Positions 1,007-61,398 of a DNA stretch of 64,000 bases are shown in pieces. The stretch is taken from the IMG/VR virus record IMGVR_UViG_3300043640_000353, positions 1 to 64,000 of that record; one strand, given 5' to 3'. The translations under genes and the position numbers were made by a program. The notes beneath the pieces were generated by a model. That model had not been told where the DNA came from. It did not search any database and saw only the letters and a list, made by a program, of their open reading frames with translations. Position 1 is the first letter of the stretch, and each line of letters opens with the position of its first letter. Origin of the DNA: a virus.

Positions 1007-1666
1007 ATGGAAGACCACAGATTAAAACCCATGCAAGATGGGTATGATGAAAAATTGTTTAATGAACTTTACAAACAAACTGCCAAACTCCGAAGAAAAT
1101 TGGCATCTCAAATTGACTGCCGAAAATTTGGGGTTGATTACCAGGAAATTCTCTCCTGGTTTGATGTTAAATTTATCCATGCCTTTGCTAAATATGAAAA
1201 GAAAGAACCCGAGAGATTAATGGGTTATATTATTAATTCATTATCTACCTATAAATATAGGATAATGCGATCATCCTATCAAGCTAAATTCCATAAGCAT
1301 AGTTCACAAATAGATATTACCGAATTATATGATTATACCAATATAGTAGAAGAGATGGATAACCATGAAGAAAAGGAAGCCCTAGTAAATGAAATAATGG
1401 ATTATCTAAAACCCCGCTTATCTCGAGATGCCATATTAATATTGGAAATAGAATTACAACCACCCCCATTTATACTTGACCAGATGAGGGATATGGGTAA
1501 AAAAGAAAATGGCCAAATACCACATAAGCTTATTGCCGATTACCTTGGATATGATGATTCTCAAAACTTTCTTAACTACATAAAGGAATTAAGAACCGAA
1601 ATAAAACAAAATATCAATTTGGCTAAAAAATTCTTTGCCAATCATAATTTACCAATCACACAATAA
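1007..1666 (+). CDS. Putative phage sigma factor (gp55/ECF-like)
   Basis: 219 aa. An N-terminal helical part (about residues 40-95) resembles sigma region 2, with aromatic and basic residues around YEKKEPERLMGYI and KYRIMR. A linker follows, then a C-terminal region-4-like HTH (about 165-205) around KLIADYLGYDDSQNFLNYI. Size and two-part layout match T4 gp55-type late sigma factors and small ECF sigmas. It would direct host RNA polymerase to phage promoters. It is the only plus-strand gene in the left third, is transcribed away from the helicase, and ends at a strong terminator facing the structural genes. Family assignment is by layout only, with no diagnostic motif, so another HTH regulator is possible. 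Confidence 0.5.
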   Translation: MEDHRLKPMQDGYDEKLFNELYKQTAKLRRKLASQIDCRKFGVDYQEILSWFDVKFIHAFAKYEKKEPERLMGYIINSLSTYKYRIMRSSYQAKFHKHSSQIDITELYDYTNIVEEMDNHEEKEALVNEIMDYLKPRLSRDAILILEIELQPPPFILDQMRDMGKKENGQIPHKLIADYLGYDDSQNFLNYIKELRTEIKQNINLAKKFFANHNLPITQ

Positions 1667-12061: not shown

Positions 12062-12064
12062 TTG

Positions 12065-12799
12065 CTAAGAATTTATATCCCTTATTTGATTAAGGGAAGA
12101 ATTGAATTCTGTTAACCTCTTAAGGGTAATTTCCTGGTATGCTTGTTGTGGTAACATATTCCTATGAGCTTGGAATAAACTTAATTTATAGGGTGCAGAT
12201 ACCACAAGCCATGTTGACTTACTAAAAAGTTTATCATTCCATATAAGTTTTATGGGGTGTGGGGGTTTATCAAATGAATCATTTTTGGTTAAGGCTTCCA
12301 ACTTTTTACAATTGGTAATAACATCTTCCCTACTCTCAATATTTGCATACCAATCAAGGGTAAATTTTAGGGTGTCCTCAGAACCGGTATAATGATATAA
12401 AGGATTATTCCTACCCATGGATGCAATGGGTATAAAATTAGAATCTGGAGTATAATCTAATTCCTGAGGAACAAATTGAATGGAAATCTGTTCCAAAGTA
12501 ACTAAATCCTTTATAATTAACCCTCTATCTATTCTTTGGTTTGGTTTGATTTTTTCTGGTTTACCAGGACCACCTATTCTCCAATTGCTATCTGATTCTA
12601 AAGGAAATGCAGTTTCACCCAATCCTTTTAACATGGCTCTCTCTTTATTTCTTAATTGTTCATAAGTTGGTGTTTTTCTGGGAATACCAAAAAAACTCTG
12701 ACCAGTTCTTTTATTGATAGATCTTCTTACTCCAGAAACAGTTAGGCTTAGTAAATCTGCTCCCAATGGAATTGGTGGTGGAACTATAGGTAAAGGCAT
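12065..12799 (-). CDS. Tail tube initiator / CIS tube-like protein
   Basis: 244 aa. A core around residues 100-150 (EQISIQFVPQELDYTPDSN, then GSEDTLKFTLDWYA) matches the tube-cap pattern of contractile injection systems, in which a short strand pair and a Y-x-x-S loop precede the L-x-F-x-L-x-W/F-x strand. Such proteins (T4 gp48/gp54-type) start tube polymerisation on the hub. The proline-rich N-terminus (PLPIVPPPIPLG) is unusual. It lies between tape measure and LysM protein. Confidence 0.6.
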   Translation of the reverse strand: MPLPIVPPPIPLGADLLSLTVSGVRRSINKRTGQSFFGIPRKTPTYEQLRNKERAMLKGLGETAFPLESDSNWRIGGPGKPEKIKPNQRIDRGLIIKDLVTLEQISIQFVPQELDYTPDSNFIPIASMGRNNPLYHYTGSEDTLKFTLDWYANIESREDVITNCKKLEALTKNDSFDKPPHPIKLIWNDKLFSKSTWLVVSAPYKLSLFQAHRNMLPQQAYQEITLKRLTEFNSSLNQIRDINS

Positions 12800-16315: not shown

Positions 16316-18157
16316 TTATTCGAAACTTACACTGGTTGATGTAACTACCAGGTCTATTGCAATTTCCTGCATACTTGGTACAAGTTTCATATACAGCTTA
16401 ACCTTATATTTTCCATTATCAATATCGGTAAGATTATTTACCTGCACATCTTCAATTTTCTTAACATCCTGATCGCCATCCCAACGATACGAATACCAAG
16501 CCCTAGCCGTTACTAAGCTATCCAGGAAAGGTTCTACTTCCAAGAACATTGCCTTCATTGTTGGTAAATCCAATGGTTCTTGTAAATACCGTGTTAATGT
16601 AGGTGATAATGATTTTTGTAAGTAAATCAAAAACCTAACTGCGGATAGGAATGATAATTTGGAATTACTTAGTACGGCAGAGTAATTACCGTTTAAAAAT
16701 ATATTACCATCCTTTTTAATCACCATATTAATTTGACGATTTGAAAGGATATTAAGGTCATTGAATTTGGCAGTGGTTCCAAAATTATTAATTACTCCCA
16801 GGGAATTTATTACTAAACCCCTTGTTGTACCTGCTGGTGAGAACCATTCCCCAAATTCATCATTAACTGCCATAATACCTAATATATCCCCAAGTTCAGA
16901 GATATTCTTGGGGGCAGATGTTACGGGGTCTGTAATAATTAATCCACCCGCAAAGAAAGCGGTATAATAGGAATTGGTACCAATTGTTTGTCGGTCATTT
17001 ACAAGTAATGCTTGTGTATTATTGGCATTATTAAGATGTGCAAAATAAACCAAATCTTTTCTTGTTTCGGAATAAGCAGAACCAGCTATATGTAGTGTAG
17101 TACTGTGCATTTCTGGGGCAGCAATTTGAAGCATATCATCTACGGCATCAAAGGCATAAAAACCCGTTGATGATGCCGAGTCACCAGAATAATCCGTTAT
17201 ATTTGGGGTTGTTCCATCTGAACCCCCATTAAAGTAATATAACCCATTTGAGGGTCTGATATTAACAGCTGTACCTGAAAGATCAATATAATTAAAATCC
17301 AATAATGCTGAAGCCGTTTTTACATCATCTAAGAAATGGGAATTAGCAATTGTTGGATTACCGGGAACCGTAAGATTTGCATAAGTTTCCTGTAATGATG
17401 GTTCTTCCGTATGGCTTACCACCATATTAAAATATTGAGCATCACCATTTGAGGCATTTAAAATTTGAATGAATACCTTATTATAATCTAATCCCTCATA
17501 TTTCATGGAAGTCTCAAATACCTCTATGCCCGTTGGTGTAGATATGGTGCCCAGATCAGATATAGTGGTAGTTGCCTGAGATACACCCAGCGTTACCAAT
17601 GAACCGGTTAATACTAAGCTTATATTTGTAGCCGGGTATATTAATATGTCCCGATCATTGGTTACTCCCCCCGCTATTTGAACCACTTCAGCTGATTGTA
17701 CAAAAGGAGAGGTTTCAATGGCAGTGGCAATTGCTGCCATAGTGGTATCGGAATCTGTAGTGAATACCACTGGTGTTATGGCAACTCCATTTATGGTAAT
17801 AACATAACTGTTGGATGTAACCAATGCTGCGGAAAAAGCTAATTTTTTTGGTTTATTAAATGATGCCTTAATGGCATCCAATGTAGAGGCATCAGTAATA
17901 TCTGTATAATGTCCAATACGATTAATCCTTAATTGGGCTCCCCTATCAAAAGCCCTTTTACATAAAAGAGGAAAATCCGAATTTGGAATATATCCCCCAT
18001 ATACTCTTAAGAATTGAGCCCATGAAGTCATTAATAAATTGGGATTACTAAATGGGCCTCTTAATGTTATACCTTCTACTCCACTAATACCTTTAAGTAT
18101 GGCGGCAATTGAAAAGGATTGGTTTACGACATTAAATTTTACTACGGGAGCATTCAT
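16316..18157 (-). CDS. Tail sheath protein (gp18-like) with inserted domain
   Basis: 613 aa. The C-terminal domain carries sheath hallmarks: VRFLIYLQKSL, EPLDLPTMKAM, ARAWYSYRWDGDQDV and the closing LYMKLVPSMQEIAIDLVV. The N-terminus (GITLRGPFSNPNLLMTSWAQFLRVYGGY) also fits. Between about residues 105 and 210 lies an extra beta domain, FSAALVTSNSYVITINGV through DSDTTMAAIATAI, that recurs in the head decoration gene at 22921. Contraction of the sheath drives tube penetration. Confidence 0.87.
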   Translation of the reverse strand: MNAPVVKFNVVNQSFSIAAILKGISGVEGITLRGPFSNPNLLMTSWAQFLRVYGGYIPNSDFPLLCKRAFDRGAQLRINRIGHYTDITDASTLDAIKASFNKPKKLAFSAALVTSNSYVITINGVAITPVVFTTDSDTTMAAIATAIETSPFVQSAEVVQIAGGVTNDRDILIYPATNISLVLTGSLVTLGVSQATTTISDLGTISTPTGIEVFETSMKYEGLDYNKVFIQILNASNGDAQYFNMVVSHTEEPSLQETYANLTVPGNPTIANSHFLDDVKTASALLDFNYIDLSGTAVNIRPSNGLYYFNGGSDGTTPNITDYSGDSASSTGFYAFDAVDDMLQIAAPEMHSTTLHIAGSAYSETRKDLVYFAHLNNANNTQALLVNDRQTIGTNSYYTAFFAGGLIITDPVTSAPKNISELGDILGIMAVNDEFGEWFSPAGTTRGLVINSLGVINNFGTTAKFNDLNILSNRQINMVIKKDGNIFLNGNYSAVLSNSKLSFLSAVRFLIYLQKSLSPTLTRYLQEPLDLPTMKAMFLEVEPFLDSLVTARAWYSYRWDGDQDVKKIEDVQVNNLTDIDNGKYKVKLYMKLVPSMQEIAIDLVVTSTSVSFE

Positions 18158-22920: not shown

Positions 22921-23646
22921 TTATTTCATAATTACCCTTACAGTTTCATCTGCACCGGTGGTTGAATCAATTACCCAACCAATGATATTTGTGGCAGTTA
23001 CTGAAGTATCCGTTACCTTAACATAACCGGCAACGGCATCATAAGAACTATATGCAACAGGACCATGAGCAAGGGCATCTGCAGATTTGCAATAGGTTAT
23101 ACAATATCCCATAAGAGCAACCGTACAATATTGACCATATACAGCATCCATTACGGCATAACCAATTTTGGTTGTACTTGCCGTGGCTGCTGTTAAAGGT
23201 TGGATTCTACCGGTTGTTGGATTAATTTCCACTGGCATCCCCTCAAAAATCTTTTTATTTACATCAGCCGCAACCACTGTTGCTTGTGACCCACCAGCCG
23301 TTACAACAAACCCAGTTAAAGGAATACCCGTTGTTTGATTATCTGGGACTACCATAATTACCCTGTCACTTGTACCGGCATCCACTACATAAGCATCCCT
23401 TACCCCGGCCATACCTGCGATGGCAGTGGCAATTGCTGCCATAGTGGTATCGGAATCTGTGGCAAAAGTTATAGCGGGAATTGCCACACCAGCAACATTA
23501 CCATTAATAACATTGGCTGTAACCAATGCTGCTGAAAAAGTTAATGAATGGGATAACCCTTCCACTTCAAATTCTTCATGTAACTTATGAGCTTCGGGGC
23601 CCTTAAGAAAAATTGTTTTTGATGGTGTACCGAATGTTGTTGGCAT
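22921..23646 (-). CDS. Head decoration/cement protein with inserted beta domain
   Basis: 241 aa. The last about 100 residues (EGMPVEINPTTGRIQPL, IGYAVMDAV, CTVALMGY) have the layout of DUF2190-type capsid cement proteins. Inserted near residues 33-128 is a domain, FSAALVTANVINGNVAGV through DSDTTMAAIATAI, shared with the sheath. One DNA tract is identical over 41 bp (23420-23460 and 17718-17758). It sits between protease and capsid genes. Decoration is inferred from order and C-terminal layout. Confidence 0.65.
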   Translation of the reverse strand: MPTTFGTPSKTIFLKGPEAHKLHEEFEVEGLSHSLTFSAALVTANVINGNVAGVAIPAITFATDSDTTMAAIATAIAGMAGVRDAYVVDAGTSDRVIMVVPDNQTTGIPLTGFVVTAGGSQATVVAADVNKKIFEGMPVEINPTTGRIQPLTAATASTTKIGYAVMDAVYGQYCTVALMGYCITYCKSADALAHGPVAYSSYDAVAGYVKVTDTSVTATNIIGWVIDSTTGADETVRVIMK

Positions 23647-33711: not shown

Positions 33712-34158
33712 TTATTTTGTTAAAGATTCTTTTGCGATCTTTAAAACCCGTTCATAGTCTTGGATAGCTAGTTCATCAGTAACGTTTGTTAAACTTTTTA
33801 AAGAAAAATCATTTAAAATGTATTCTTTTTTGTAAAAAGAAATAAATTCTCTAGATAACTTTTTTATTTCTTCTTTATTTTTTTCAACAAAAAATTTGTT
33901 AGCAAAAAGTTTTAAATCCCTACGAATTTTGTTTCTTTTTTTCTTTTCGTCTTTTGCAGAAAGCTTATTTTTTTTATCAGCGATTGAATTTTCGAGTTGA
34001 AAACGATATAAGTAGTTTTTTTCTTTTACTGCGGTTGAACGATCTTTTTCAGCTGCTTTTTTTACTACTGCTGCTGCATTAGCACTATCAATAGCTTTTT
34101 CATTTTTTGAAACTTTTGCGCTTTGCGCTTTTTTTTCATTTTTTACTTTGTTTTCCAT
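33712..34158 (-). CDS. Lysine-rich protein of the YPxDC-related family
   Basis: 148 aa, 20-25% Lys/Arg. Residues 30-145 align in outline with the 124-aa protein at 40920: VVKKAAEKD, NYLYRF, KKRNKIRRDLKLFANKF and the FISFYKKEYI end correspond to ALVKKITDKK, LVYKYP, KRKAFRTKARKTLTK and FKKANYL. The Y-P-x-D-C core itself is altered here. Its 5' leader is one of two identical 85-bp copies. Confidence 0.6.
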   Translation of the reverse strand: MENKVKNEKKAQSAKVSKNEKAIDSANAAAVVKKAAEKDRSTAVKEKNYLYRFQLENSIADKKNKLSAKDEKKKRNKIRRDLKLFANKFFVEKNKEEIKKLSREFISFYKKEYILNDFSLKSLTNVTDELAIQDYERVLKIAKESLTK

Positions 34159-34240
34159 TTTTTTTAGAGTTTTAAAAAGTTTAACTTATTATTTATTTAT
34201 ATATATATAACGTAAAGATAAAAAAAAGATACAGAAAAAA
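34156..34240 (-). repeat. 85-bp direct repeat, copy 1 (5' leader of 33712 gene)
   Basis: From the CAT of the ATG at 34158 rightwards, 85 bp are identical to 34418-34502. It includes the AAAACTCTAAAA leader, a TATATATATA tract and TCTTTTTTTTATC. It is upstream of the lysine-rich gene on its own strand and overlaps the 3' end of nothing else. Confidence 0.9.
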
Positions 34241-34420
34241 TTAAAATAAATTTATTATTTCGAATTTTGTTAACACTGCTGCTATTGCAGCAGATACAGC
34301 AATAAAAATAAATAAATAAAAATTAGTTTTGTTATTATTTTTTTTAAGCTGGTAAGTTTTTTTTTGCGTAAATGAAATTTCGAGAATTTCGTTTTTTACG
34401 GACTTGGGAAGTGTTTTCAT
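34241..34420 (-). CDS. Small single-span membrane protein (59 aa)
   Basis: ATG at 34420, TAA at 34241, 59 codons. N-terminal charged half, then a hydrophobic segment NFYLFIFIAVSAAIAAVLTKF (about 33-53), one predicted membrane span. Its start sits in the second copy of the 85-bp duplicated leader, the same leader used by the downstream lysine-rich gene. Not recognised; a host-interference membrane peptide is a possibility. Confidence 0.65.
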   Translation of the reverse strand: MKTLPKSVKNEILEISFTQKKTYQLKKNNNKTNFYLFIFIAVSAAIAAVLTKFEIINLF

Positions 34421-34502
34421 TTTTTTTAGAGTTTTAAAAAGTTTAACTTATTATTTATTTATATATATATAACGTAAAGATAAAAAAAAGATACAGAAAA
34501 AA
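34418..34502 (-). repeat. 85-bp direct repeat, copy 2 (5' leader of the 59-aa gene)
   Basis: Identical to 34156-34240 base for base. It holds the same leader and AT-rich stretch just upstream of the ATG at 34420. The two copies probably give matched transcription or translation of the two genes. Confidence 0.9.
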
Positions 34503-38947: not shown

Positions 38948-39529
38948 TTAGGATTTAAGAAATAGTTTTACAAAGGCTATAATTGTATTTTTGAAATGGT
39001 CCTTACCCCGTCCTGAACTAGGAGCATCATAAGCAGCAGCATAAGCAGCAGCATCAGCAGCATAAGCAGCATCAGCAGCAGCAGCATCAGCAGCAGCAGC
39101 AGCATAAGCATAAGCAGCAGCATCAGCAGCATAAGCAGCAGCATCAGCAGCATAAGCAGCAGCATCAGCAGCAGCAGCAGCATAAGCAAGTTGGCGCTTA
39201 TCTCTCAATTCATTAATCCCTATTGTACCCTTCAAATAGGCCTTTGCTGCCTCTATAGCCTGCCTTGGTGCCTTATTACCAGGGTATTTATTCTCGTATA
39301 TTACCAGGGTTATTTCTGCTATTCCAATACAAAGCCATTTCTTTTGCCCCGAGTCTAACTCACATTGGTTTCTTACAAACCATAGTTTATCTTTTAATGG
39401 TATTTCACTATCCAAGATGGTATCTATGTTAATTTCTGGTTGTCCTATAAAGGACAATTTTTGAACTTGTTCCCGATTATAGCATCCCCTGTTGGTTAGG
39501 ATATCGATTGGGGTAAAATTTGTTTTCAT
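38948..39529 (-). CDS. Protein with Ala/Asp/Tyr-rich repeat C-terminus
   Basis: 193 aa. Residues 1-115 are an ordinary helical domain (KLWFVRNQCELDSGQKKWLCIGIAEI, APRQAIEAAKAYLKG). From about 118 to 170 the protein is a low-complexity run of A-A-A-D/Y units. A GRGKDHFKNTIIAFVKLFLKS tail closes it. Similar Ala-rich tails occur in a known class of phage hypothetical proteins; function unknown. Confidence 0.6.
   Translation of the reverse strand: MKTNFTPIDILTNRGCYNREQVQKLSFIGQPEINIDTILDSEIPLKDKLWFVRNQCELDSGQKKWLCIGIAEITLVIYENKYPGNKAPRQAIEAAKAYLKGTIGINELRDKRQLAYAAAAADAAAYAADAAAYAADAAAYAYAAAAADAAAADAAYAADAAAYAAAYDAPSSGRGKDHFKNTIIAFVKLFLKS
39022..39189 (-). repeat. GCA/GCT trinucleotide-type microsatellite
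   Basis: Runs of AGCAGC, CATAAG and CATCAG units within the 193-aa gene. Period is 3 with a 9-15 nt supra-pattern, so length change by replication slippage would keep the reading frame. Confidence 0.85.
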
Positions 39530-40769: not shown

Positions 40770-40812
40770 TAAAATTAATTGATAATTAACCTATATGAAA
40801 GGAGCTTAGGAA
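40770..40812 (-). promoter_or_regulatory. Promoter cassette with conserved upstream block
   Basis: Minus strand: TAATTTTA (40777-40770), 19-nt spacer, TTTC (40800-40797). Adjacent upstream is the 15-bp block whose plus-strand form is AAAGGAGCTTAGGAA (40798-40812). The same block recurs at 41365 and 41716 and, with changes, at 45207. Confidence 0.6.
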
Positions 40813-40828
40813 ATAAAATCACAAAAGG

Positions 40829-41336: not shown

Positions 41337-41379
41337 CAAATTTATAATGTATTAAACCCATACAAAAGGAGCTTAGGAA
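41337..41379 (-). promoter_or_regulatory. Promoter cassette with conserved upstream block
   Basis: Minus strand: TTTG (41366-41363), 18-nt spacer, TAAATTTG (41344-41337). Both boxes match TTTG/TAnnTTTG exactly. The 15-bp block occupies 41365-41379 and abuts the stop codon of the upstream 93-aa gene. Confidence 0.75.
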
Positions 41380-41661
41380 TTATTTTCCTGTAAAAACTAA
41401 GGCCAAAATTGGTTCCTCTTCATCAGCTTCTTCCTCGGTTGAGGGAGAGATGGTTAATTCCCCAACATAGCCAGAATATGATATTGCCATATCCAATATA
41501 TTATCCCCACTTACTGGAATTACCACTTGGGTATTACTTCTATCCCCATGGTTATATTTAAAGGTAACAGGAAGGTCATCATCGAAGGAATCAAGTAATT
41601 CTTTTAATTCCCTAACCGTTATCGCTTTGGATAACTTTTGTTTAATTTGTTCTTTTGTCAT
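41380..41661 (-). CDS. Hypothetical acidic protein
   Basis: 93 aa. TVRELKELLDSFDDDLPVTFKYNHGD (about 16-41) and acidic PSTEEEADEEEP near 74-85. The opening follows a common phage pattern, but I cannot assign a function. Promoter at 41688-41717. Confidence 0.55.
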   Translation of the reverse strand: MTKEQIKQKLSKAITVRELKELLDSFDDDLPVTFKYNHGDRSNTQVVIPVSGDNILDMAISYSGYVGELTISPSTEEEADEEEPILALVFTGK

Positions 41662-41687: not shown

Positions 41688-41730
41688 TAAAATTAATATA
41701 AATATGTACCATACAAAAGGAGCTTAGGAA
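41688..41730 (-). promoter_or_regulatory. Promoter cassette with conserved upstream block
   Basis: Minus strand: TTTG (41717-41714), 18-nt spacer, TAATTTTA (41695-41688), then the 15-bp block at 41716-41730. It drives the 93-aa gene at 41661. Confidence 0.7.
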
Positions 41731-41734
41731 ATAT

Positions 41735-45178: not shown

Positions 45179-45221
45179 TAAAATTAATTGATAATTAACC
45201 TATATGAAAGGAGCTTGAGAA
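45179..45221 (-). promoter_or_regulatory. Promoter cassette with upstream block
   Basis: Minus strand: TAATTTTA (45186-45179), 19-nt spacer, TTTC (45209-45206), and a diverged copy of the 15-bp block (45207-45221: AAAGGAGCTTGAGAA). It drives the 132-aa gene at 45164. Confidence 0.6.
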
Positions 45222-45308
45222 ATAAAAATCACTTTAATTGGATTATACCCGCCTGATGATTAATAAAGAATTCCATCCCATTTACTTCTATTATCTGTAA
45301 TTGGTATC

Positions 45309-50913: not shown

Positions 50914-51306
50914 TTATTTTTTCTTTTTCTTGGCAGACTTAGCAGCCGGCTTTTTCTTTTTAGATTTTTTGTCATCCTCATCCTCATCCTCATCCTCATC
51001 CTCATCTTCATCCTCATCTTCATCCTCATCCTCATCCTCATCTTCATCCTCATCTTCATCCTCATCCTCATCTTCATCTTCATCTTCATCTTCATCTTCA
51101 TCTTCATCTTCATCTTCATCTTCATCTTCATCTTCATCTTTTTTCTTACCTTTTGCCTCTTTGGAAGGAGTTGCTGAAATAGGGGCGATTAATGCAAAGA
51201 TAAATGTACCATCTTCAAAGGTAATTTTTGAAAAGGGACTGTTCTCAACAGTCTCAATTGATTTGATTTTCTTACCCACTAATGGGTTTTTTGTTGTTTT
51301 TGCCAT
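50914..51306 (-). CDS. Protein with poly(Asp-Glu) tract
   Basis: 130 aa. Residues 1-55 form a small beta-rich domain (IKSIETVENSPFSKITFEDGTF), then GKKK, then about 56 residues of alternating Asp-Glu, and a lysine-rich tail (KKSKKKKPAAKSAKKKKK). The acidic run mimics DNA phosphate charge, as in DNA-mimic or histone-chaperone-like tails (inference). It is close to a period-6 DNA repeat. Confidence 0.6.
   Translation of the reverse strand: MAKTTKNPLVGKKIKSIETVENSPFSKITFEDGTFIFALIAPISATPSKEAKGKKKDEDEDEDEDEDEDEDEDEDEDEDEDEDEDEDEDEDEDEDEDEDEDEDEDEDEDEDDKKSKKKKPAAKSAKKKKK
50972..51139 (-). repeat. Period-6 (TCATCC/TCATCT) microsatellite
   Basis: A run of TCATCCTCATCT-type hexamers about 168 bp long. 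It codes for alternating Asp-Glu on the minus strand. The 5' half mixes GAG and GAA; the 3' half is uniform GAAGAT. Any frame stays open, which explains the long shadow ORFs here. Confidence 0.9.
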
Positions 51307-52024: not shown

Positions 52025-52589
52025 AGAATTGATTTATCATGGGAATATTAATCCCCGGGTTTCTTATATATAATGTTTCTTTGGGTATTTGTTGGGGTTT
52101 ACTATCCACATTTTTTATAAAATGTTTCCAGGTCATCCCAGATGATTCGGTTAATAAGTTAAAGGCTTTTAATGTTGTATAGGCAAATAGGCCATATTGC
52201 TTACTTCTATAAGATATGGTAAATTGTTTTAGGCAATTAGCAGAGTTTAATGATTTTCTAAGAAAGGCTCTAAAATTATTTCGATACCTTTTCTTTTTAC
52301 GCCATGTATTACATTCTTTAGGATAAGCATATTTCTCGGGAAACATATCTTGGGTTATTTTTTTCTTAGATAATGGTATACCCCTTTCTAAAGCTTCTTC
52401 ACCTTTAATAACCTCATAAAATATGGCCCCAGTCTTTAGAATTATATACCTATTTGCCAATTCTCTGGTTTTACATGAAAACCTTAATAAATATGGCTTT
52501 CTAAGATTAACCAATGAAAGAACATAGAATTTATCCATTTCTATGTTCTCACCATTTACTTTAAAATATCCCTGGGCATGCTTATACAT
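51900..52589 (-). CDS. Basic protein with YPKEC motif
   Basis: 229 aa. The motif KYAYPKECNTWRKKKRYRNNF at about 96-117 continues the YPxDC series. N-terminal HAQGYFKVNGENIEMDKFYVLSL and FFYEVIKGEEALERGIPLSKKK are alpha/beta. The C-terminal 41 residues overlap the next gene. Start overlaps the TAA of the 190-aa gene (TAATG). Confidence 0.55.
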   Translation of the reverse strand: MYKHAQGYFKVNGENIEMDKFYVLSLVNLRKPYLLRFSCKTRELANRYIILKTGAIFYEVIKGEEALERGIPLSKKKITQDMFPEKYAYPKECNTWRKKKRYRNNFRAFLRKSLNSANCLKQFTISYRSKQYGLFAYTTLKAFNLLTESSGMTWKHFIKNVDSKPQQIPKETLYIRNPGINIPMINQFYERHFGKKHPKLKYPSSIGTMAKFESTLLSIERKKPKSLLF

Positions 52590-53161
52590 TATTCTAAGGC
52601 TTCAATTGCTTTCTTTGCTCTTTTCATCCAGATTTTTATGGATTTATCTTTGGCATCTGCAAATATGGATTTTACTTTTGTGGTTGTTTCTTCTATGCTT
52701 AATCCCTCTTTTACGCATTGATATGTTAAGGCTTTTTTAGTACCTTTAAATATACCCATGGTTTCATCCTTCTCCCTCTTATCAGATGCCTTCTTAATTT
52801 TTTTGGGTCTTTTGATCTCTACATCCCCAGTTTCTTCATTTTCCTCTCCCACATATCCCATCTTTACAAATGGCTCACCCTCTTTGCCTAAAATCTTTAA
52901 TTTGGCTAACCTCCATTCATCAAAGGCATCTAATCTTTTTGAATCTGTTATGGTTTCCCAATTTTTAATTAGCCAGGTTTGTAATTTCCCAATATCTGAT
53001 TCTACCAGTATATCGGGATCCATTCCCCTTATAATACATGACTTCTGAAGATCAAGATAACGCATAGTTAATAACTCGGCATTAATCTTATCCAATTTCT
53101 TGTAGTAATCTAACCTTGTTTCCTCTGAGGAGAAGGGTTGTTTTGTTTTGGTTTTTGCCAT
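52589..53161 (-). CDS. Hypothetical charged protein
   Basis: 190 aa. Lys/Glu-rich throughout, all helical (KLDKINAELLTMRYLDLQKSC; KLKILGKEGEPFVKMGYVGEENEETG). A TAATTTTA -7-like box lies upstream (53193-53186). Might belong to replication or transcription, given the genes nearby. Confidence 0.5.
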   Translation of the reverse strand: MAKTKTKQPFSSEETRLDYYKKLDKINAELLTMRYLDLQKSCIIRGMDPDILVESDIGKLQTWLIKNWETITDSKRLDAFDEWRLAKLKILGKEGEPFVKMGYVGEENEETGDVEIKRPKKIKKASDKREKDETMGIFKGTKKALTYQCVKEGLSIEETTTKVKSIFADAKDKSIKIWMKRAKKAIEALE

Positions 53162-53237: not shown

Positions 53238-54182
53238 TTAGGTATTCTTATTTGACATGAACCATTGGAAATCATGATCTATACCGGCATTATCCAATAC
53301 ATATTTCCTTGTGGGGCTTATATTTTGGATAATATCATAATTTATGGCTTTTTTAGTTAATATCCTAAATTCTGGCCAAAATTTCTGGCCATCCCTACAA
53401 TGCTTATAGTCCTTCTCAATATATAGGGTTATTATTTCCAAAAATCTTTTGGCATCACCGGCATCTCTAAAAATATAAAGAATAAGATTATTCATTACCC
53501 TTAAATTTTTGGTATTATTGGGTACAGCTATAATTTGGGTTAAGCTTAGGTCATTAACCGTTATTAATGGTAGGAAAAAACAATTCTTGGCCATACCCTT
53601 CCTCTTTACTTCATAGATCTGTTTTATCTTTAAAATTGATAACGGGTGTAAAGATGTAAATAAGTTTACTAGTTTCCTTAGTTTATGCTTATTTCGGCGT
53701 TTAAAAGCAGATGGTTCTTGAATTGATAAGGGTAGTATCCTAAAATTATTCCACCTATCAAAATCCATTATTAAATGGTATAGATTGTTATCTTGAACAA
53801 ATTTAGAGCCTTTTAAACTTTGAACTTCCCTTAATATTTCTATCTCACGGGATTTAATCTTCCCATAGATATCTGATCCCATTTCTAATGTTGCTCTTTT
53901 AATTGGCAACCTGTTTTCCAGGGTAAATCTAATATATTGTTTAAAGTCCTTATCTAAGATTGATCCGACTGGGATTAGGTAATCGTATATTTCAAAATAA
54001 TCGGTAAATAGTTTAAGGAATTTTTCGGCTCTTTGCCTTATTTCCAAATACTTATAATGGGCTTTACCCATTATTTCTCCGGCTTCCCAGGTAGATTTAC
54101 CATGGGATAAAGATAATGATAAAGCCATCTTCTCCTCATCGGTTAGAATCTTCCAAGCTTTTTGTTGGGCTTTAGTCATCAT
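53238..54182 (-). CDS. Putative HTH transcription-related protein
   Basis: 314 aa. An N-terminal HTH-like element, ILTDEEKMALSLSLSHGKSTWEAGEIMGKAHYKYLEIRQRAEKFL (about 12-55), resembles sigma region 4. The rest is helical with no motif I know. Overlaps the NusG-like gene's end by 11 nt. Confidence 0.45.
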   Translation of the reverse strand: MMTKAQQKAWKILTDEEKMALSLSLSHGKSTWEAGEIMGKAHYKYLEIRQRAEKFLKLFTDYFEIYDYLIPVGSILDKDFKQYIRFTLENRLPIKRATLEMGSDIYGKIKSREIEILREVQSLKGSKFVQDNNLYHLIMDFDRWNNFRILPLSIQEPSAFKRRNKHKLRKLVNLFTSLHPLSILKIKQIYEVKRKGMAKNCFFLPLITVNDLSLTQIIAVPNNTKNLRVMNNLILYIFRDAGDAKRFLEIITLYIEKDYKHCRDGQKFWPEFRILTKKAINYDIIQNISPTRKYVLDNAGIDHDFQWFMSNKNT

Positions 54183-54897
54183 ACCTTAGGTAATTTTGGG
54201 CAGAGTTTTTACCCTTTATTTTTATATCCTCTAAACTCTTTTCCTTAAAATCTTTTTCATCAAATGTTCCCATATAGATGGTATAAAATACATTGTCAAA
54301 TGATACGGCAATCTTTTTTAGAATACCCTCCAATTGTAATTCAACCTCTACCTCTTGTTTTCTGGAATTTACTTTTATAACATCGGCTGTCATACCCTCA
54401 AAAGGATAACCTTTTAGAATAATCATCATCCCAGGTTGTAGGTTATCAATATCATCCTTGGAATAAAGGTTATATTCCTTTTGGGCATCAACCAATCTCC
54501 TTATTTCTCCCGATGTTGCCAATGCTACTGGGATCATATCCTTCCTTATTAATGGCTCATTACCTTCTATTAATGAAGGCCTTGAGGTTATAATACTCTT
54601 GGTATCTTTTACCCAGGCATAAATAGCTGGAATATCTTTTTTCATTTCCTGAAGGAATTCAGATTCCAATTTCCTATTTGGGAGTTGAAAAAATCCATAG
54701 TTAAATAACAAAGGTACCTCTTCAAATATATCTTTTCCTTTAAATTGTTTTTTAAGGATTTTAACTGTTGGTATATAGGCCTTTACTTCCCGGTATTTAT
54801 CAGGAAATTTAGATAAGTCCTTTTCTACCCTATCCATGAAATCCCTGTTTATATAGGCTATTGCCCAACTACAGTTTGGTTTTAATTTTAAGCCCAT
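54172..54897 (-). CDS. NusG/RfaH-like transcription factor
   Basis: 241 aa. The N-terminal NGN pattern is visible: CSWAIAYINRDFMDRVEKDL, KAYIPTVKILKKQF, then LLFNYGFFQLPN (about 9-80). The C-terminal KOW unit is DNLQPGMMIILKGYPFEGMTADVIKV (about 151-175), followed by a small beta-barrel. It should bind host RNA polymerase and suppress pausing or termination. It overlaps the PDDEXK gene by 10 nt and the HTH gene by 11 nt, an operon of expression factors. Confidence 0.72.
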   Translation of the reverse strand: MGLKLKPNCSWAIAYINRDFMDRVEKDLSKFPDKYREVKAYIPTVKILKKQFKGKDIFEEVPLLFNYGFFQLPNRKLESEFLQEMKKDIPAIYAWVKDTKSIITSRPSLIEGNEPLIRKDMIPVALATSGEIRRLVDAQKEYNLYSKDDIDNLQPGMMIILKGYPFEGMTADVIKVNSRKQEVEVELQLEGILKKIAVSFDNVFYTIYMGTFDEKDFKEKSLEDIKIKGKNSAQNYLRYDD

Positions 54898-55418
54898 AGT
54901 TGTTTAATTATTTTGGAGGTTATTTTTTTAATCTGTTGATAATCCGTTTTAAATAAAAGGTTTGAATCCATGAATATGAGTTTGCCGAGTTTAAAATAGG
55001 GGTGTTTAGCTATGGGCATTAAACTTTTGATTTTTTTGAACTCGGAATACCTTATCACTATAATAAAAAATTCCTTTTTCATCCCATCATACCGCATCAT
55101 TAGAAGAGGTAATTTTTTAGCTCTAATGGAATCTTCTACGCATTGTGGCCAAAATTCATGGGTTATTTTAGATTTAACCTGGGGCATTAGTAGATGTTCA
55201 AAATTGATATCAGAATAATTCTTTACCTCTATGGAGAAATCAAATCTATGGAGAGCATCTGTACAAACTATATCCCCGGATATATTTTCTGCTTTTTTCC
55301 ATCTAAGACCCCCAGATGCCGGTACCCCAGCGAATTCAAGGTTTGTCCAAGATTTTAAAGCAATACGTGCAATCTTTTCTCCACGTTTACCTTTCTTCCT
55401 TGAGTTTATTTTGGCCAT
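54888..55418 (-). CDS. PDDEXK nuclease, Holliday-junction-resolvase-like
   Basis: 176 aa. A helix with KRGEKIARIALKSW, a SGGLRWKKAENISGDIVC strand giving the Asp, and FDFSIEVKNYSD with E-x-K form an archaeal Hjc/RecU-like core (residues about 10-70). Later, basic strands follow. Expected to resolve recombination intermediates with SbcCD and UvsX nearby. Confidence 0.65.
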   Translation of the reverse strand: MAKINSRKKGKRGEKIARIALKSWTNLEFAGVPASGGLRWKKAENISGDIVCTDALHRFDFSIEVKNYSDINFEHLLMPQVKSKITHEFWPQCVEDSIRAKKLPLLMMRYDGMKKEFFIIVIRYSEFKKIKSLMPIAKHPYFKLGKLIFMDSNLLFKTDYQQIKKITSKIIKQLWA

Positions 55419-55460: not shown

Positions 55461-57302
55461 CTAGACTGCTAGATGGGTATTTCCATTTTTCTTTTTCAAA
55501 TGGATTATATTGGAATGGGTGGGATTGAAATCCCTATGGTGGGTTATTATATGTACGGATTTACCCTGGGATTTTTGGGCTATAAGATTTGAAACAATTT
55601 CTATATTCTCGGGGTCAAGATTTTCAAAAACTTCATCCATTACCAATAAATTCATATCTTTATCTTGGCAGATAGTATCATGAACAGCAAAAGCAATACA
55701 AATATTTATAAGTTGCTGCTCCCCCCCCGAGAGATCATCATACATGCGGATATTATTTTTTTGTTCTAATGATATATAAAAATCCTTATTCGAAGATTCA
55801 AGGTCAACTCCGAAATTAATTTTGAAACCCAATACAGAAGCATATTGCTTTAAATTCCCATTTACAGATAAAAGCATCTGATCAAATATAAAGGCTTTTA
55901 TACCAGAATTTGATAGGGGATCTTTTATAAGCCAATTTAAAATCTCTATATCCTTTCTTAATCTGGTTATTTCTTCTTTAGATTTTACTATAGAGATTTT
56001 AAGTTTTTTCTTCTTACCATAAAACCAGCTCATATCATTGGGTAATTTTTCTTCCCTAATTTTTAATATTCCCGAGTCTATATCTCTTATTTTATTTTGG
56101 GTATGGCTCAGCTTTTGAAAATAATTCTCATGTTCAGCTTTCTTATCCGATAATTTATTGGTAATATTACAAATCCTATCTTTTATGGCCACCTTCTTTT
56201 TATCTATATTGCCAAAGGAATCCAATTCGGATTGTATTTCTATATGTTTCTTATTCAAAAGAATAATTCTCTGTTTTGAAAATCCTATTTCCTTTTTAAT
56301 ATTTACCTTTTCTTTTTTTATTAGGTCTTTAGATAATTTAGCCCCACAAGTTTTACAGGTGATAATTATACTTTTAAATTTATTGGTAAGTTTAATCTTA
56401 TGGGCTTTCTCATTATCTATATCCCCAAGAGTATTTTGTATTTCCATATCCTTTTTAAAGGCCATTAAGGATTTAGCTTCAACCTCTTCTTTTAAGGTAT
56501 TCAGAAAATTTAGCTTGGAATTCAATTTTCCTATTTTGTTATTATCCATGGGATTTTGAACCAGGGCATTAAGAGTTTTTACATATTTCTTTTTTTCGGA
56601 TAATTCAGAGCTAATTCTCTGTTCCTTCATTTTCTCAAAATTCCTAAGAATTTTTTTATTATCCTTAATACTTCTCTTAAGTGTTTTATACTCCTGTAAT
56701 TTGGAATTCAGGTTATCTGTTATTTTGGATAAATTCCTATTTAATTCATCCCTTCTTACTTCCGAATCTTTTTTAGCCCTTTGTATATATTCTATATCAA
56801 ATGCCTCATCAAATACCTTTTTCTTTGTAGGTCCATCCTCTTCAATTATCCTTTTCATCTTTTGGCCAAATATAGCTGAGTTTCTGAATAGGTCAAAACT
56901 ATAACCCAGTACAAATATTATTTCCTTTTGTATTTCAACTTTACCTTTATTGGTGTAAAGTTTACCATCCTTATAAAATTGTAAATCAGATATAGCTTTC
57001 TTATCCTCTTTATACTTCTCTAACCTAATTATCTGATATTCTGAGTTATCCTTATGGAATATTACACCACCCCTAGTCCCCCTAAAATTTTTACCCCTTT
57101 TATCTGGCCAAGTTTGTATATTAGCCTTTTTGGATTTTAAGGTTCTTCCATAAATTACCCATGATAAACCAGAAAATATGGTTGTCTTACCAATACCATT
57201 CCTTGCTTGTAATACATTTATACCCGGGATATTTAAGTTATATGTAAAAGAATTTATTATACTACCAAATCCTTCTAATGTTAGGGTTTGAAAATTTATC
57301 AT
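55461..57302 (-). CDS. SbcC/Rad50-like ATPase (gp46-like)
   Basis: 613 aa. Walker A NGIGKTTI at 35-42, a Q-loop region, a long coiled coil with CKTCG zinc hook near residue 313, ABC signature LSGGEQQL near 524 and Walker B LLVMDEVFENLDPE near 554. It works with the adjacent SbcD to open and trim double-strand ends for recombination-dependent replication. The coiled coil is short (about 330 residues) as in T4 gp46. Confidence 0.88.
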   Translation of the reverse strand: MINFQTLTLEGFGSIINSFTYNLNIPGINVLQARNGIGKTTIFSGLSWVIYGRTLKSKKANIQTWPDKRGKNFRGTRGGVIFHKDNSEYQIIRLEKYKEDKKAISDLQFYKDGKLYTNKGKVEIQKEIIFVLGYSFDLFRNSAIFGQKMKRIIEEDGPTKKKVFDEAFDIEYIQRAKKDSEVRRDELNRNLSKITDNLNSKLQEYKTLKRSIKDNKKILRNFEKMKEQRISSELSEKKKYVKTLNALVQNPMDNNKIGKLNSKLNFLNTLKEEVEAKSLMAFKKDMEIQNTLGDIDNEKAHKIKLTNKFKSIIITCKTCGAKLSKDLIKKEKVNIKKEIGFSKQRIILLNKKHIEIQSELDSFGNIDKKKVAIKDRICNITNKLSDKKAEHENYFQKLSHTQNKIRDIDSGILKIREEKLPNDMSWFYGKKKKLKISIVKSKEEITRLRKDIEILNWLIKDPLSNSGIKAFIFDQMLLSVNGNLKQYASVLGFKINFGVDLESSNKDFYISLEQKNNIRMYDDLSGGEQQLINICIAFAVHDTICQDKDMNLLVMDEVFENLDPENIEIVSNLIAQKSQGKSVHIITHHRDFNPTHSNIIHLKKKNGNTHLAV

Positions 57303-58297
57303 GATGTTTTCAATGTTTTTATTAAGGCTATTCTTTTATCTTTATCCTTTATACCCTTTTTCTTTAGGTAATTCTTGGCTATTTTTGTTTTGCTTTTGGT
57401 ATTATCAAATCCCTTATCTACTATACCCATTTCCTTTTCCTTTTTGGGTTTTGGTATGTAAATATGAAAATTATCGGGGATTTCTTTTTTGGAATTATAA
57501 TATTTGAATTCAGGTAAATTCAGGTTTACAAATTTGGGTTTATCTTTTTCATATATTTCCCAATAACCCATATCTATTCCCCTATCCCCAGCATTTTGTT
57601 GGTGGGTGGCACCTAACATATAAATGTTATTCCCCAATTGTTGTGGTTTGTGAATATGGCCACTTAATACCAGGTTAAAATCATTAAAATAGGTATTTAT
57701 ATCCTTAGGGATTTTCTTTACCTCCCCTATTTCAAATCCATAGCCATTTCTTGCCCCGGGTAAATCTGTATGTATTAGTAAAATTTTAAAGGCATCTTTA
57801 TTATCCCGTATATCGGCAATAAATTTTTCCATATATACTTCGAAACTTAGATTATGTGTTAGGTATGGGATGCCATAAACAAGAATTCTCTTGCCCATTG
57901 TTGGAATAATTTCTTTTTTCACTCCATCAATGCAATGGAAATGATTAAATATATTTGAGAAGGATTTTATATAACTAGGTGATTTATGGTAATAGGTATT
58001 TTGCCTTGACATATCATGATCACCAGATATACCTATAAAATCCACACCCAAATTTTCAAAGAATTCTTTGAAATATCCTATAAATTCCATAAGAATTTGA
58101 TTATTTAGGCTTTTCCAATTATGAAATAAATCACCTGGGAATAATACAGGTACCTTTAATTCTTTTGCCCTTAAGCCTATTATCTCTAGGGGTTTTAAAG
58201 AATTAAAAAGCCTATCCCCTTTATAGGAATAGGCATTCTCCCATTGATGAATATGGGCATCTGCAAATGCCAAAGCTATTGGTTTATTTTTGTTCAT
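57299..58297 (-). CDS. SbcD/Mre11-like nuclease (gp47-like)
   Basis: 332 aa. Metallophosphoesterase motifs: FADAHIHQWEN (10-20), FPGDLFHNW, GISGDHDM, LIHTDLPG and LSGHIHKPQ. The His and Asp ligands are all present. Ends overlap the SbcC start by four bases. The C-terminal 60 residues are charged. Confidence 0.87.
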   Translation of the reverse strand: MNKNKPIALAFADAHIHQWENAYSYKGDRLFNSLKPLEIIGLRAKELKVPVLFPGDLFHNWKSLNNQILMEFIGYFKEFFENLGVDFIGISGDHDMSRQNTYYHKSPSYIKSFSNIFNHFHCIDGVKKEIIPTMGKRILVYGIPYLTHNLSFEVYMEKFIADIRDNKDAFKILLIHTDLPGARNGYGFEIGEVKKIPKDINTYFNDFNLVLSGHIHKPQQLGNNIYMLGATHQQNAGDRGIDMGYWEIYEKDKPKFVNLNLPEFKYYNSKKEIPDNFHIYIPKPKKEKEMGIVDKGFDNTKSKTKIAKNYLKKKGIKDKDKRIALIKTLKTS

Positions 58298-58886
58298 ATT
58301 CTTTGGAGATTGTTAATTTTACTAATTGCTTCCTTGTTTCCCAATCCCATTTTTGTAACGTGTTACCTCTTAATTTCTTAAGCTCATTTACCATAAGGGT
58401 ACATGAAAGATCAAATGCTTGGTTTGATAACATTTGATAGTACCTATTGTTTATTCTTTTACCATCATCTTCAAGAGGTATTTCTTTTGTAAAAGGTAAT
58501 ACAAATAAATAATTAAATTTACTTAAAGCCTTTTCACAATAGTGAATATACCTTGTGGTATCATTTTCAGGAAGTGAATGGGTATTTTGTAAAAGGAAAT
58601 ATGATAAGTTATCAACTGGTGACCTATCGGTTACAAAATTAACATGACCCTTCAAGGCGTTTTCCCTAAATTCCAAAACCTCATGTTGAAATTGTAAACC
58701 CCAAACTGGGTCATGGGAAGCCCTTTCTAATAACATTAAATGAGATTTTATCTTGTGTTTATCCCACAAAGGTTTTGTTGATGTAGTTATAAATGGTATT
58801 TTATACTCCTCGGAGATCCATTTCGCTAATGTGCTTTTACCGGTACCACTTGGTCCAGCTAGGGCAATTCTTAAACTTAAATCCAT
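58284..58886 (-). CDS. P-loop nucleotide kinase-like ATPase
   Basis: 200 aa. Walker A GPSGTGKSTLAKWI at about 10-23, then FITTSTKPLW and a DRSPVDNLSYFLLQ stretch (about 91-104) resembling deoxynucleoside/nucleotide kinase lids. Supplies nucleotide precursors or phosphorylates DNA ends. Overlaps the SbcD gene by 14 nt. Confidence 0.65.
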   Translation of the reverse strand: MDLSLRIALAGPSGTGKSTLAKWISEEYKIPFITTSTKPLWDKHKIKSHLMLLERASHDPVWGLQFQHEVLEFRENALKGHVNFVTDRSPVDNLSYFLLQNTHSLPENDTTRYIHYCEKALSKFNYLFVLPFTKEIPLEDDGKRINNRYYQMLSNQAFDLSCTLMVNELKKLRGNTLQKWDWETRKQLVKLTISKEYEQK

Positions 58887-58890
58887 GATT

Positions 58891-59778
58891 TTATTTTTTG
58901 GGTTGGTAATTCTTTAAAAATTTACTTTCCTTAAATCCTTTAACATTATAAATCTTACACATTCTGAATAAGCTTTCCTGGTTAAACTTAGGGGTTTTAT
59001 CGCCATTATAAAATTCAATTTTTTGGTTTCCTTTCAAATGTTTTTTATAAAAAAGCTTTAGATCAATTAGCTGCCTATTTAGCTTGTAAATGCTTCTTAG
59101 TTGATCTTTATCAATTTTTGCAAATGGTTTATCACTTTTTAAGAATTTTTTTATACTAGAGAATTCCTGGATTATGCCACCCGCCTTAGCTGGACCAATA
59201 CCCCTTAAACCTTTTATATTATCTGAACCATCCCCTATTAGGCATAAATAATCTACACAATTTTTAGGTTCATAGCCATATTTTACTTTAAGATTATTTT
59301 TGTGAATTAAGTTCCTGGATGCGGTATTATAAACCTTAACATTGGATCTGATTAATTGATGAAAATCTTTATCTGTTGAGATAATTGTTATTTTGTTTTC
59401 CTTTTCCTTTTGGTATTTCCTTACCAACATATATATAAAATCATCTGCCTCCATCTTGGGAGCAAAGAGTTGTTTTAATCCCAAAGAATAAAATATTTTC
59501 ATAACCTCATCCCTTTGGTTATAGAATGCCTTTGCCTCTTCCTCAGTTTTAGTTTTTCTACCCGCTTTATATCCGGGATATAATCTTAATCTTATTGGTG
59601 ATCTGTCTTTATCCCAGCAAATAAAAATCTTATCGGGTTTGAATTGATTTATAAGGGTATTAACCAATACTGGCATACCATAGATTATTGATACCGGCTT
59701 ACCTAGATTTTGTAATCTGGAATAGGCATGATATGCTCTATACATGGTATTATTACCGTCAATGATTAAAATTTTCAT
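58891..59778 (-). CDS. 5'-3' exonuclease (FEN/Pol I N-terminal type)
   Basis: 295 aa. Metal sites in LIIDGNNTMYRAYHA, MEADDFIYM, STDKDFHQL and LIGDGSDNIKGLRGIGPAKAGGI with the helix-3-turn-helix segment. Similar to T4 RNase H and the Pol I 5' nuclease. Removes flaps or RNA primers, needed because the family-A polymerase at the right edge is separate. ATG overlaps the HNH stop. Confidence 0.85.
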   Translation of the reverse strand: MKILIIDGNNTMYRAYHAYSRLQNLGKPVSIIYGMPVLVNTLINQFKPDKIFICWDKDRSPIRLRLYPGYKAGRKTKTEEEAKAFYNQRDEVMKIFYSLGLKQLFAPKMEADDFIYMLVRKYQKEKENKITIISTDKDFHQLIRSNVKVYNTASRNLIHKNNLKVKYGYEPKNCVDYLCLIGDGSDNIKGLRGIGPAKAGGIIQEFSSIKKFLKSDKPFAKIDKDQLRSIYKLNRQLIDLKLFYKKHLKGNQKIEFYNGDKTPKFNQESLFRMCKIYNVKGFKESKFLKNYQPKK

Positions 59779-60287
59779 GTTGAATATTTAAAGGTATAAT
59801 TTCCTATCTTTAATTTTTTCCTGGCTGATTTACGGATTTTAGAAGCCGATATACCTAAAGCTAGGGATGCTGCTTTGGGTGACTCATAAATATTTTCTTT
59901 ATTATTATGGATGTCAAATACTACCAAACCTTTTGTAGATGTTTTCAAACTTGCTTTCTCCTGCCATCTTTGTAAATATCCCCGGTAAAAAGTTAAAGCT
60001 TTTTTGGAAGACCATTTTAGGTTTGAGAAATGGTTATTGGTTTTATTACCATCCAGGTGAATGATACAGTTGTATCTTTTAGGATCCTTATTACCTATAA
60101 AATTGTAAGCAACTAATTTATCTACCCTTTTCTCAATGGGTTTTTTATCCCTAATAAGGGAGACAAACATATAACCCGTTTTACCCAACTTTAATGGTAA
60201 GGTCATACCTTGTCTATTGGTTATTATCCCAGAAGGGGTTATAGCATAATCATTACCATAACCCCTTAAATTTTTAATCACCATCAT
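59775..60287 (-). CDS. HNH homing-type endonuclease
   Basis: 170 aa. The HNH core is CIIHLDGNKTNNHFSNLKW near 75-93, preceded by a NUMOD4-like start (GYGNDYAITPSGIITNRQG) and followed by a NUMOD1-like C-terminus (KGLVVFDIHNNKE, SPKAASLALGISASKIRKS). It sits between UvsX and exonuclease and overlaps both (14 nt and ATGA), a free-standing mobile nuclease inserted at a gene junction. Confidence 0.8.
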   Translation of the reverse strand: MMVIKNLRGYGNDYAITPSGIITNRQGMTLPLKLGKTGYMFVSLIRDKKPIEKRVDKLVAYNFIGNKDPKRYNCIIHLDGNKTNNHFSNLKWSSKKALTFYRGYLQRWQEKASLKTSTKGLVVFDIHNNKENIYESPKAASLALGISASKIRKSARKKLKIGNYTFKYST

Positions 60288-61398
60288 TTTTAGCCAATTT
60301 TACCGGATAAAGATTTTTATTTAAAGCCTTTATTTGTTGTTTTGTTCTTGAAATAGTATTGATTTTGGATTTTTGTATTAACTTTTTCCTTAGCTCATTA
60401 TTTGTTTTTAATGCTTCAAGGAAACTCTCTTCCCCTCTCCCAACCATTTTATCCTCAAAATAAAATATGCTACTTCCTTTTTTCCTATTTACCACTCCCA
60501 ACGAAACAAGTAATTCGGGTAATCCTGTATATTTATCAAAACCTACATCATTAGTACTGGTTTTTCTAAAATATACCTGACCCGATGATGTTGATCTTGG
60601 TGGACCAGTTTTATCTTTTTTGGTTTTACAATAAACATTCTGACCAACTTTGATTTCAAATCCCTTTATCTTTTTCTTTATTTGCTTACCTCTTACCAAA
60701 CCCACTCTTTGGGCAGCATAGAATTTAGTGGCATCCCCCCCAACTGTTTTATCGGGATCTTCCCATTGGGTAGCACCAATCTTTTTACGTAATTGGTTAA
60801 TAAGAATTACACATACCCCCATTTTGGCAAACAGTTGATTTCTACTACCTAAAAAATCTGATATAGCTTTGGCCCTTAATCCATATTTGGCTTTTGCATC
60901 CAACATGGATTCACCTACCTCACCAATGGTTCTTATGGTTGCCAATGAATCAACGACCAGTAGGATTGGTTCATTATTGGTTAACCTTGACCTAGCGGCC
61001 ATAATCGTATCTTGGGACCAATCCGCAATTCTCTCCATGGCATTATCTTCCATGAGATATAAATTATCAAGGTCTATCCCATTTTTAATGAACCAAGATT
61101 TATTAAAGGCATTCTCGGCATCATCCCAAATAACTATACCCCCAAGAGCCTGGCATACGGAAGCAAAATCCATAGCGAGTAAACTCTTACCCGTGGATTC
61201 TTCCCCAAATAGTTCAAGAATTTTACCATAAGGTAATCCACCATTTAATTGATGATTTAGGGCTATAAATCTTGTTGGTAATCTTAATACCTGATCATCG
61301 GATAGAGCTATAATTGAAGCTCTTCCTGATGATGGGTATTTCTTAGCTAATTGGGCATCTGATAGAATCTTAACTGAAGCTGATTTCTTTTTAGCCAT
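60274..61398 (-). CDS. uvsX: UvsX/RecA-like recombinase
   Basis: 374 aa. Walker A GEESTGKS at 65-72, Walker B LLVVDSLAT, L1/L2-like loops around KYGLRAKAISDF and TVGGDATKFYAAQR, and a charged C-terminus. Strand exchange for recombination-dependent replication. Start overlaps the SSB gene's TAA (TAATG). Confidence 0.88.
   Translation of the reverse strand: MAKKKSASVKILSDAQLAKKYPSSGRASIIALSDDQVLRLPTRFIALNHQLNGGLPYGKILELFGEESTGKSLLAMDFASVCQALGGIVIWDDAENAFNKSWFIKNGIDLDNLYLMEDNAMERIADWSQDTIMAARSRLTNNEPILLVVDSLATIRTIGEVGESMLDAKAKYGLRAKAISDFLGSRNQLFAKMGVCVILINQLRKKIGATQWEDPDKTVGGDATKFYAAQRVGLVRGKQIKKKIKGFEIKVGQNVYCKTKKDKTGPPRSTSSGQVYFRKTSTNDVGFDKYTGLPELLVSLGVVNRKKGSSIFYFEDKMVGRGEESFLEALKTNNELRKKLIQKSKINTISRTKQQIKALNKNLYPVKLAKNDGD

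Follow-up and report, generated by a model that had tools for sequence, protein, structure and literature searches.

A divergent phage-encoded NusG-like protein in a strictly conserved gene triplet with a PDDEXK nuclease

The DNA analysed here, called the window in the following, comprises 64,000 nt and is part of the virus record IMGVR_UViG_3300043640_000353, which has a length of 73,789 bases. Matches to a tail sheath (1e-28), a tape measure, a portal and a terminase show the virus to be a tailed phage whose tail is contractile. It carries T4-like recombination genes (UvsX, SbcCD) and a match to an A-family-type DNA polymerase. The features of the locus are compiled in Table 1. Both open reading frames named by the first-pass annotation, a PDDEXK nuclease and a NusG-like protein, are present on the minus strand at the expected positions and overlap by 10 nt; the NusG-like gene overlaps the gene of a 314-aa protein by 11 nt. 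The NusG-like gene occurs as a single copy in the genome and sits inside the recombination/replication cassette, away from the head of the structural operon.

Table 1. Features of the locus and of related regions, with positions in the window.
Feature	Position	Strand	Basis or context
NusG-like protein, 241 aa (NGN + KOW)	54172..54897	-	profiles, profile-profile comparison, fold
NGN domain, residues 8-141	54475..54876	-	VIA-align model range versus RfaH N-domain
P-L-LFNYGF strand, residues 62-69, putative RNAP β' clamp helices contact	54691..54714	-	conservation, RfaH alignment
KOW domain, residues 148-206, without FGR Rho-contact loop	54280..54456	-	fold, alignment
PDDEXK nuclease (PF24608), 176 aa, Holliday-junction-resolvase-like by PHROG 244	54888..55418	-	Pfam, PHROG
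Conserved 314-aa protein, HTH by eye only, core motif FDRWNNxRILP	53238..54182	-	conservation
Conserved 190-aa protein, after the triplet, usually directly	52589..53161	-	gene order of relatives
SbcC-like ATPase subunit (T4 gp46 type)	55461..57302	-	PHROG 77, 5.8e-53
SbcD-like nuclease subunit (T4 gp47 type)	57299..58297	-	PHROG 100, 6e-28
Deoxynucleotide/thymidylate kinase-like	58284..58886	-	PHROG 2107, 8.7e-13
5'-3' exonuclease	58891..59778	-	PF02739, 1e-34
UvsX-like recombinase	60274..61398	-	PHROG 97, 1.9e-55
Leader element cores	40791-40813, 41358-41380, 41709-41731, 45200-45222	-	50-75 nt upstream of four small genes
Conserved, weakly sigma-70-like protein	1007..1666	+	12/12 relatives; one homologue TIGR02937 7.4e-6

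The similarity of the 241-aa protein to NusG is remote, since a Pfam scan alone yields no NGN or KOW match. Scanning the single sequence against NCBIfam detected UpxY as the best match (NF033644; E-value 3.3e-9), followed by LoaP (NF033641; 2.2e-6), the Spt5 KOW profile (1.2e-3), RfaH (5.8e-3), and the housekeeping NusG (TIGR00922; 1.1e-2). The bit scores were 36.9 for UpxY, 27.9 for LoaP, 16.5 for RfaH, and 15.6 for NusG versus curated cut-offs of 100, 125, 124, and 135.7, respectively; the window protein and its homologues stayed below every curated NusG-subfamily cut-off of NCBIfam. UpxY was matched by 20 of the 28 phage homologues at E ≤ 0.01, and a profile-profile comparison with 24 bacterial NusGs by means of hhalign gave an E-value of 5.5e-6, the alignment spanning the end of NGN plus KOW. 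PHROG 6386 ("transcription antiterminator") matches in the KOW domain only (4.8e-4). When the window protein was used as a tblastn query, two phage records were found, both from its own family and 32-33% identical. A viral scan with the single sequence gave no matches; a three-sequence alignment of NusG-like proteins as the query led to 30 more viral contigs. UpxY-like relatives were sought among plasmids and none was found.

The fold was predicted with AF2. A single-sequence model (pLDDT 34) was discarded and replaced by one built on 27 aligned sequences, the row of L002 being left out. The latter reached a mean pLDDT of 74.9, with values above 90 across much of NGN; confidence is moderate overall, and the insert and the C-terminal tail are unreliable. 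In a Foldseek search against the PDB, the first 33 matches (E ≤ 0.001) were all NusG, RfaH or Spt5, the best E-value being 4e-9. The N-terminal domain adopts the NGN fold of the NusG/Spt5 superfamily: VIA-align superposed it on the RfaH N-domain (8pen_P) over 101 of 101 residues with an RMSD of 2.5 Å and a Z-score of 10.3. Within it, an insert near residues 99-125 is variable (entropy 2.44). The C-terminal domain was identified as a KOW domain of the same superfamily both by its fold and by the Spt5 KOW profile. Foldseek aligned it with the NusG KOW domains 1nz9 and 2mi6 at TM-target values of 0.78-0.79 and RMSD values of 1.4-1.7; with VIA-align, NusG KOW domains superposed at about 2 Å, and many unrelated Tudor domains matched the barrel as well. 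The orientation of the two domains in the model is untrustworthy, as indicated by a large RMSD over the whole chain; this is commonly seen when a linker joins two domains. AF2 proposed KOW as a barrel only, and such a model is compatible with an RfaH-type switch between α-hairpin and β-barrel. The comparison, made at the level of the fold, supports a NusG/RfaH-like protein and gave no sign of a structure incompatible with clamp binding. Profiles, hhalign, AF2 and Foldseek thus bear out the NGN and KOW patterns seen by the first-pass annotation, and the open reading frame encodes a real NusG-superfamily protein consisting of NGN plus KOW.

The most conserved part of the protein is a strand in NGN. 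Among the 28 homologues, eight alignment columns are invariant, and seven of these are P62, L64, F65, N66, Y67, G68, and F69; accordingly, seven of the eight residues 62-69 (P-x-LFNYGF) are fixed, and the conserved hydrophobic clamp-helices strand of the NusG/Spt5 superfamily is present in the whole set. Conservation peaks at this site, with a mean entropy of 0.64 over residues 59-71 versus 1.8 for the whole NGN. In the alignment with RfaH (sequence taken from NC_000913), VPLLFNYGF of the phage protein corresponds to EPLFPNYLF, such that residues 62-69 are equivalent to RfaH P49-F56. Tyr-54 and Phe-56 of RfaH form part of the patch that contacts the β' clamp helices. NusG and every paralogue keep Tyr-54; at position 56, Phe characterises RfaH-like proteins and Leu is found in most NusGs (PMC2871177). 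The KOW domain differs from that of housekeeping NusG: the FGR of the Rho-contact loop is present in 24/24 bacterial NusGs and in 0/28 phage proteins, where the informative number is 26 because two phage sequences end ahead of the loop. In NusG, residues I164, F165, and G166 of this loop contact Rho, and its loss has been proposed as an early step on the path from NusG to RfaH (PMC7593976). An invariant RNAP-binding strand combined with a lost FGR is the pattern expected, judging from sequence, of a specialised paralogue which would bind RNAP without recruiting Rho. Profile matches, fold and strand together support the assignment as a NusG/RfaH-like paralogue.

The gene upstream in the triplet encodes a PDDEXK nuclease, which matched PF24608 with an E-value of 6e-26 (91.7 bits versus a cut-off of 27). 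Its E-D-ExK active site is intact, residues E14, D49, E64, and K66 being invariant in 33 of 33 sequences; together with the match to PHROG 244, this confirms the resolvase-like nuclease proposed initially. The third member, the 314-aa protein, had been read as an HTH protein. The overlapping arrangement and the nuclease stood up to inspection; the HTH was not confirmed, as profile scans found no convincing HTH, sigma or other family match. The protein is well conserved nevertheless, with a core FDRWNNxRILP...Q.P...KRR that is invariant in 24 relatives.

The relatives found with the NusG profile have almost the same gene order throughout, namely UvsX, exonuclease, kinase, SbcD, SbcC, PDDEXK, NusG, 314-aa protein, 190-aa protein; some of them lack the kinase gene or have it elsewhere. 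Because this set had been selected for NusG, the search was repeated starting from the 314-aa protein. In 50 of 50 loci, the NusG-like gene was located directly upstream and preceded by PDDEXK (49 of 49 according to the preset room rule for the NusG-like gene); note that some of the 50 loci had already been part of the first set, so that fewer than 50 independent genomes are represented. The gaps within the triplet range from about -90 to +6 nt and are mostly overlaps, some of which reflect the choice of the start codon. A fusion of nuclease and NusG was not seen among the loci examined. The coupling of the NusG-like gene to the nuclease, which the first-pass annotation had deduced from one locus, therefore holds for the family as a conserved order of three genes.

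With respect to the host, a Shine-Dalgarno-like tetramer at positions -18 to -4 was found in 0 of 81 window genes as compared to 13% for the coding background, and 51% of the letters at these positions are A. The relatives are likewise depleted, to a varying extent. Such depletion is typical of Bacteroidota, and the absence of these sites suggests a host from this phylum. The UpxY match agrees with this signal because UpxY is the specialised NusG of Bacteroidota (PMC7593976). The host is thus probably a member of the Bacteroidota, as far as can be deduced from the DNA itself. The -33/-7 promoter pattern of this phylum is not enriched in the whole window (6 occurrences versus 3.4 in shuffles), so promoter support for the host is weak and comes from a few leaders only. 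A scan of genome contigs for hosts matched just two metagenome bins, one Spirochaetaceae and one Dysosmobacter MAG; these were set aside as host evidence, as the phage contig is possibly mis-binned in them.

A leader element of 54 nt is repeated in four copies, and its 23-nt core TTTCCTAAGCTCCTTTTGTATGG has an expected chance occurrence of 0.01; a fifth, looser copy precedes 35273. An ops-like sequence near the promoters of long operons, which the first-pass annotation had considered, was not found by the repeat search, which detected solely this promoter-like leader element. It was set aside as an ops-like site, since its conserved block overlaps a plausible TTTG / TAnnTTT promoter and extends upstream of it, and since the element precedes small genes rather than the long structural operon. 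An Rfam scan gave no match, and a literature search on the nearest named relative, MT121964, found no paper.

The gene at 1007 had been considered a second, sigma-like modifier of RNA polymerase. It was found in all 12 larger relatives at 31-46% identity. The window copy gave marginal sigma matches only (0.02 to 0.52), and the best member of the family reached 25.7 bits with sigma70-ECF (TIGR02937) versus a curated cut-off of 42.9. "Weakly sigma-like" is a fair statement for its product. The existence of two phage-coded modifiers is plausible, since the gene is conserved in the family and one homologue matches sigma70-ECF; membership in the sigma-70 superfamily at the curated level was not reached.

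NusG is the only family of transcription factors known to be conserved universally. Most textbook phages hijack the NusG of their host, as in the case of lambda N, and do without a copy of their own. Phage-encoded NusG as such is already known: a bacterial NusG query found Synechococcus phage S-CRM01, Microcystis phage MaAM05, Bacillus phage G gp582, and phages of 630-735 kb (PHROG 6386). Some of the other matches, to Listeria, Staphylococcus, Salmonella, and Acinetobacter records, possibly stem from bacterial DNA deposited as phage. These known phage NusGs belong to the same superfamily, but are far in sequence and share PHROG 6386 via KOW only. An evident member of the new family is A0A8S5LRJ5 of Myoviridae sp. 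ctfJc17, which has the same length, 33% identity, and a Foldseek E-value of 7e-20; its name in BFVD, "DNA-directed RNA polymerase subunit alpha", is probably a misannotation. For Helicobacter pylori prophages, a NusG-like regulator has been proposed to speed the elongation of late genes (PMC11321410). What is new here is the divergent subfamily and its strict triplet. We class the family as a new subfamily of specialised NusG proteins encoded by phages because its sequence is far from the known phage NusGs, it has a fixed neighbourhood of its own, and it meets no curated cut-off.

Among the specialised paralogues of bacteria, UpxY shares the NGN-KOW architecture and probably the host phylum and is the best curated match; however, its profile comprises 164 positions as compared to 241 aa of the phage protein with insert and C-terminal tail, and UpxY sits in capsular polysaccharide operons, whereas the phage gene belongs to a recombination cassette. 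With RfaH of E. coli, the protein has in common the strand PLFPNYLF (PLLFNYGF in the phage), including Y54 and F56, and the lack of the NusG-type Rho loop; it differs in that the AF2 model shows only the barrel form of KOW, without sign of a fold switch, and that the repeat search yielded no ops element. LoaP, likewise an antiterminator, has a different gene context.

In summarizing these likenesses, we consider it likely that the protein is an RfaH/UpxY-like phage NusG which acts through host RNAP as an antitermination or processivity factor for long phage operons. UpxY and LoaP, the best-matching families, are both antiterminators. In such a mechanism, NGN would dock on the β' clamp helices of host RNAP, as fold and invariant strand suggest, and the bound protein would suppress pausing, as reported for NusG-like proteins generally. 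Recruitment of Rho is not expected, since the KOW domain lacks the Rho-contact loop; by occupying the site of host NusG, the protein would moreover block Rho recruitment by the latter. The outcome would be processive, termination-resistant transcription of long phage operons. The 314-aa protein may aid recruitment, which is a guess from gene order. The sub-threshold profile scores, the lack of an ops-like element, the location in the cassette, and the moderate pLDDT speak against this role.

All NusG-like proteins share one site on RNAP, and the phage protein might instead compete there with host NusG or UpxY in order to shut down or rewire host operons, for example those for the capsule. Capsule operons determine phage susceptibility in Bacteroidales. 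In gut Bacteroidales, operons bearing UpxY, the closest curated family, shift their expression under phage exposure (PMC12118408), and the absent Shine-Dalgarno sites point to a host from Bacteroidota. Such a take-over is nevertheless unlikely: the gene is fixed in the replication/recombination cassette of every relative, environmental ones included, and for this reason a core phage role fits better than an effect on the host surface.

The same cassette brings to mind a coupling of transcription and recombination, in which the NusG-like protein would bring PDDEXK or SbcCD to RNAP, or link replication/recombination intermediates to late transcription. The near-constant order SbcD-SbcC-PDDEXK-NusG-314 aa, the mostly overlapping or nearly zero gaps of the triplet and the intact active site of the nuclease would fit, but the conserved order may signify co-expression only, and the fusion one might look for is absent from the loci examined; we therefore rate the coupling as rather improbable. 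The same low expectation applies to one complex of nuclease, NusG-like and 314-aa protein on host RNAP. If it existed, a NusG fold would take a resolvase-type nuclease, perhaps together with SbcCD, to transcribed DNA, and an RNAP complex would tie phage recombination, or late expression that depends on replication, to transcription. Even less probable is a reuse of the NGN-KOW fold for a task other than RNAP binding, for instance to bind DNA or RNA during recombination: KOW/Tudor barrels are versatile, as illustrated by the unrelated Tudor matches, and insert and tail are large compared with NusG, yet the RNAP-binding strand is the most conserved stretch of the protein. Chance similarity, to which the missing Pfam match and the weak single-sequence TIGR00922 score might point, can in practice be dismissed on account of the fold, with which the independent profile and profile-profile evidence agrees.

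Uncultured myoviruses that form a large group, with Bacteroidota as their probable hosts, thus have a divergent NusG as a core gene, and a gene missed (no Pfam match) or misnamed by databases receives a name. If the protein works as the favoured antitermination reading implies, it would amount to an antitermination strategy that is compact and self-contained, and would illustrate the specialisation of NusG paralogues in nature. The assignment also offers a functional handle on the neighbouring 314-aa gene.

Several further features were noticed. An 89-nt direct repeat (34152-34240 and 34414-34502; 99% identical, 262 nt apart) lies in an AT-rich stretch, and identical 41-nt stretches at 17718-17758 and 23420-23460 belong to two structural genes, one in the tail sheath region and one near 23.4 kb. 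The ORF at 50914-51306 (minus strand) has long repeats of 3-nt units (TCATCC/TCATCT on the plus strand), which read as an acidic run of Asp and Glu; L002 has an acidic ORF of similar kind at 11843-12313. Repeats of the AGCAGCATAAGC type at 39023-39188 (minus strand) within ORF 38948-39529 probably specify an alanine-rich tract. Finally, the start (IYALIDPNTNKIRYIGKT) of an ORF at 3408-4004 of L069 (minus strand; about 66.4-67.0 kb of the record) resembles by eye a GIY-YIG homing endonuclease.
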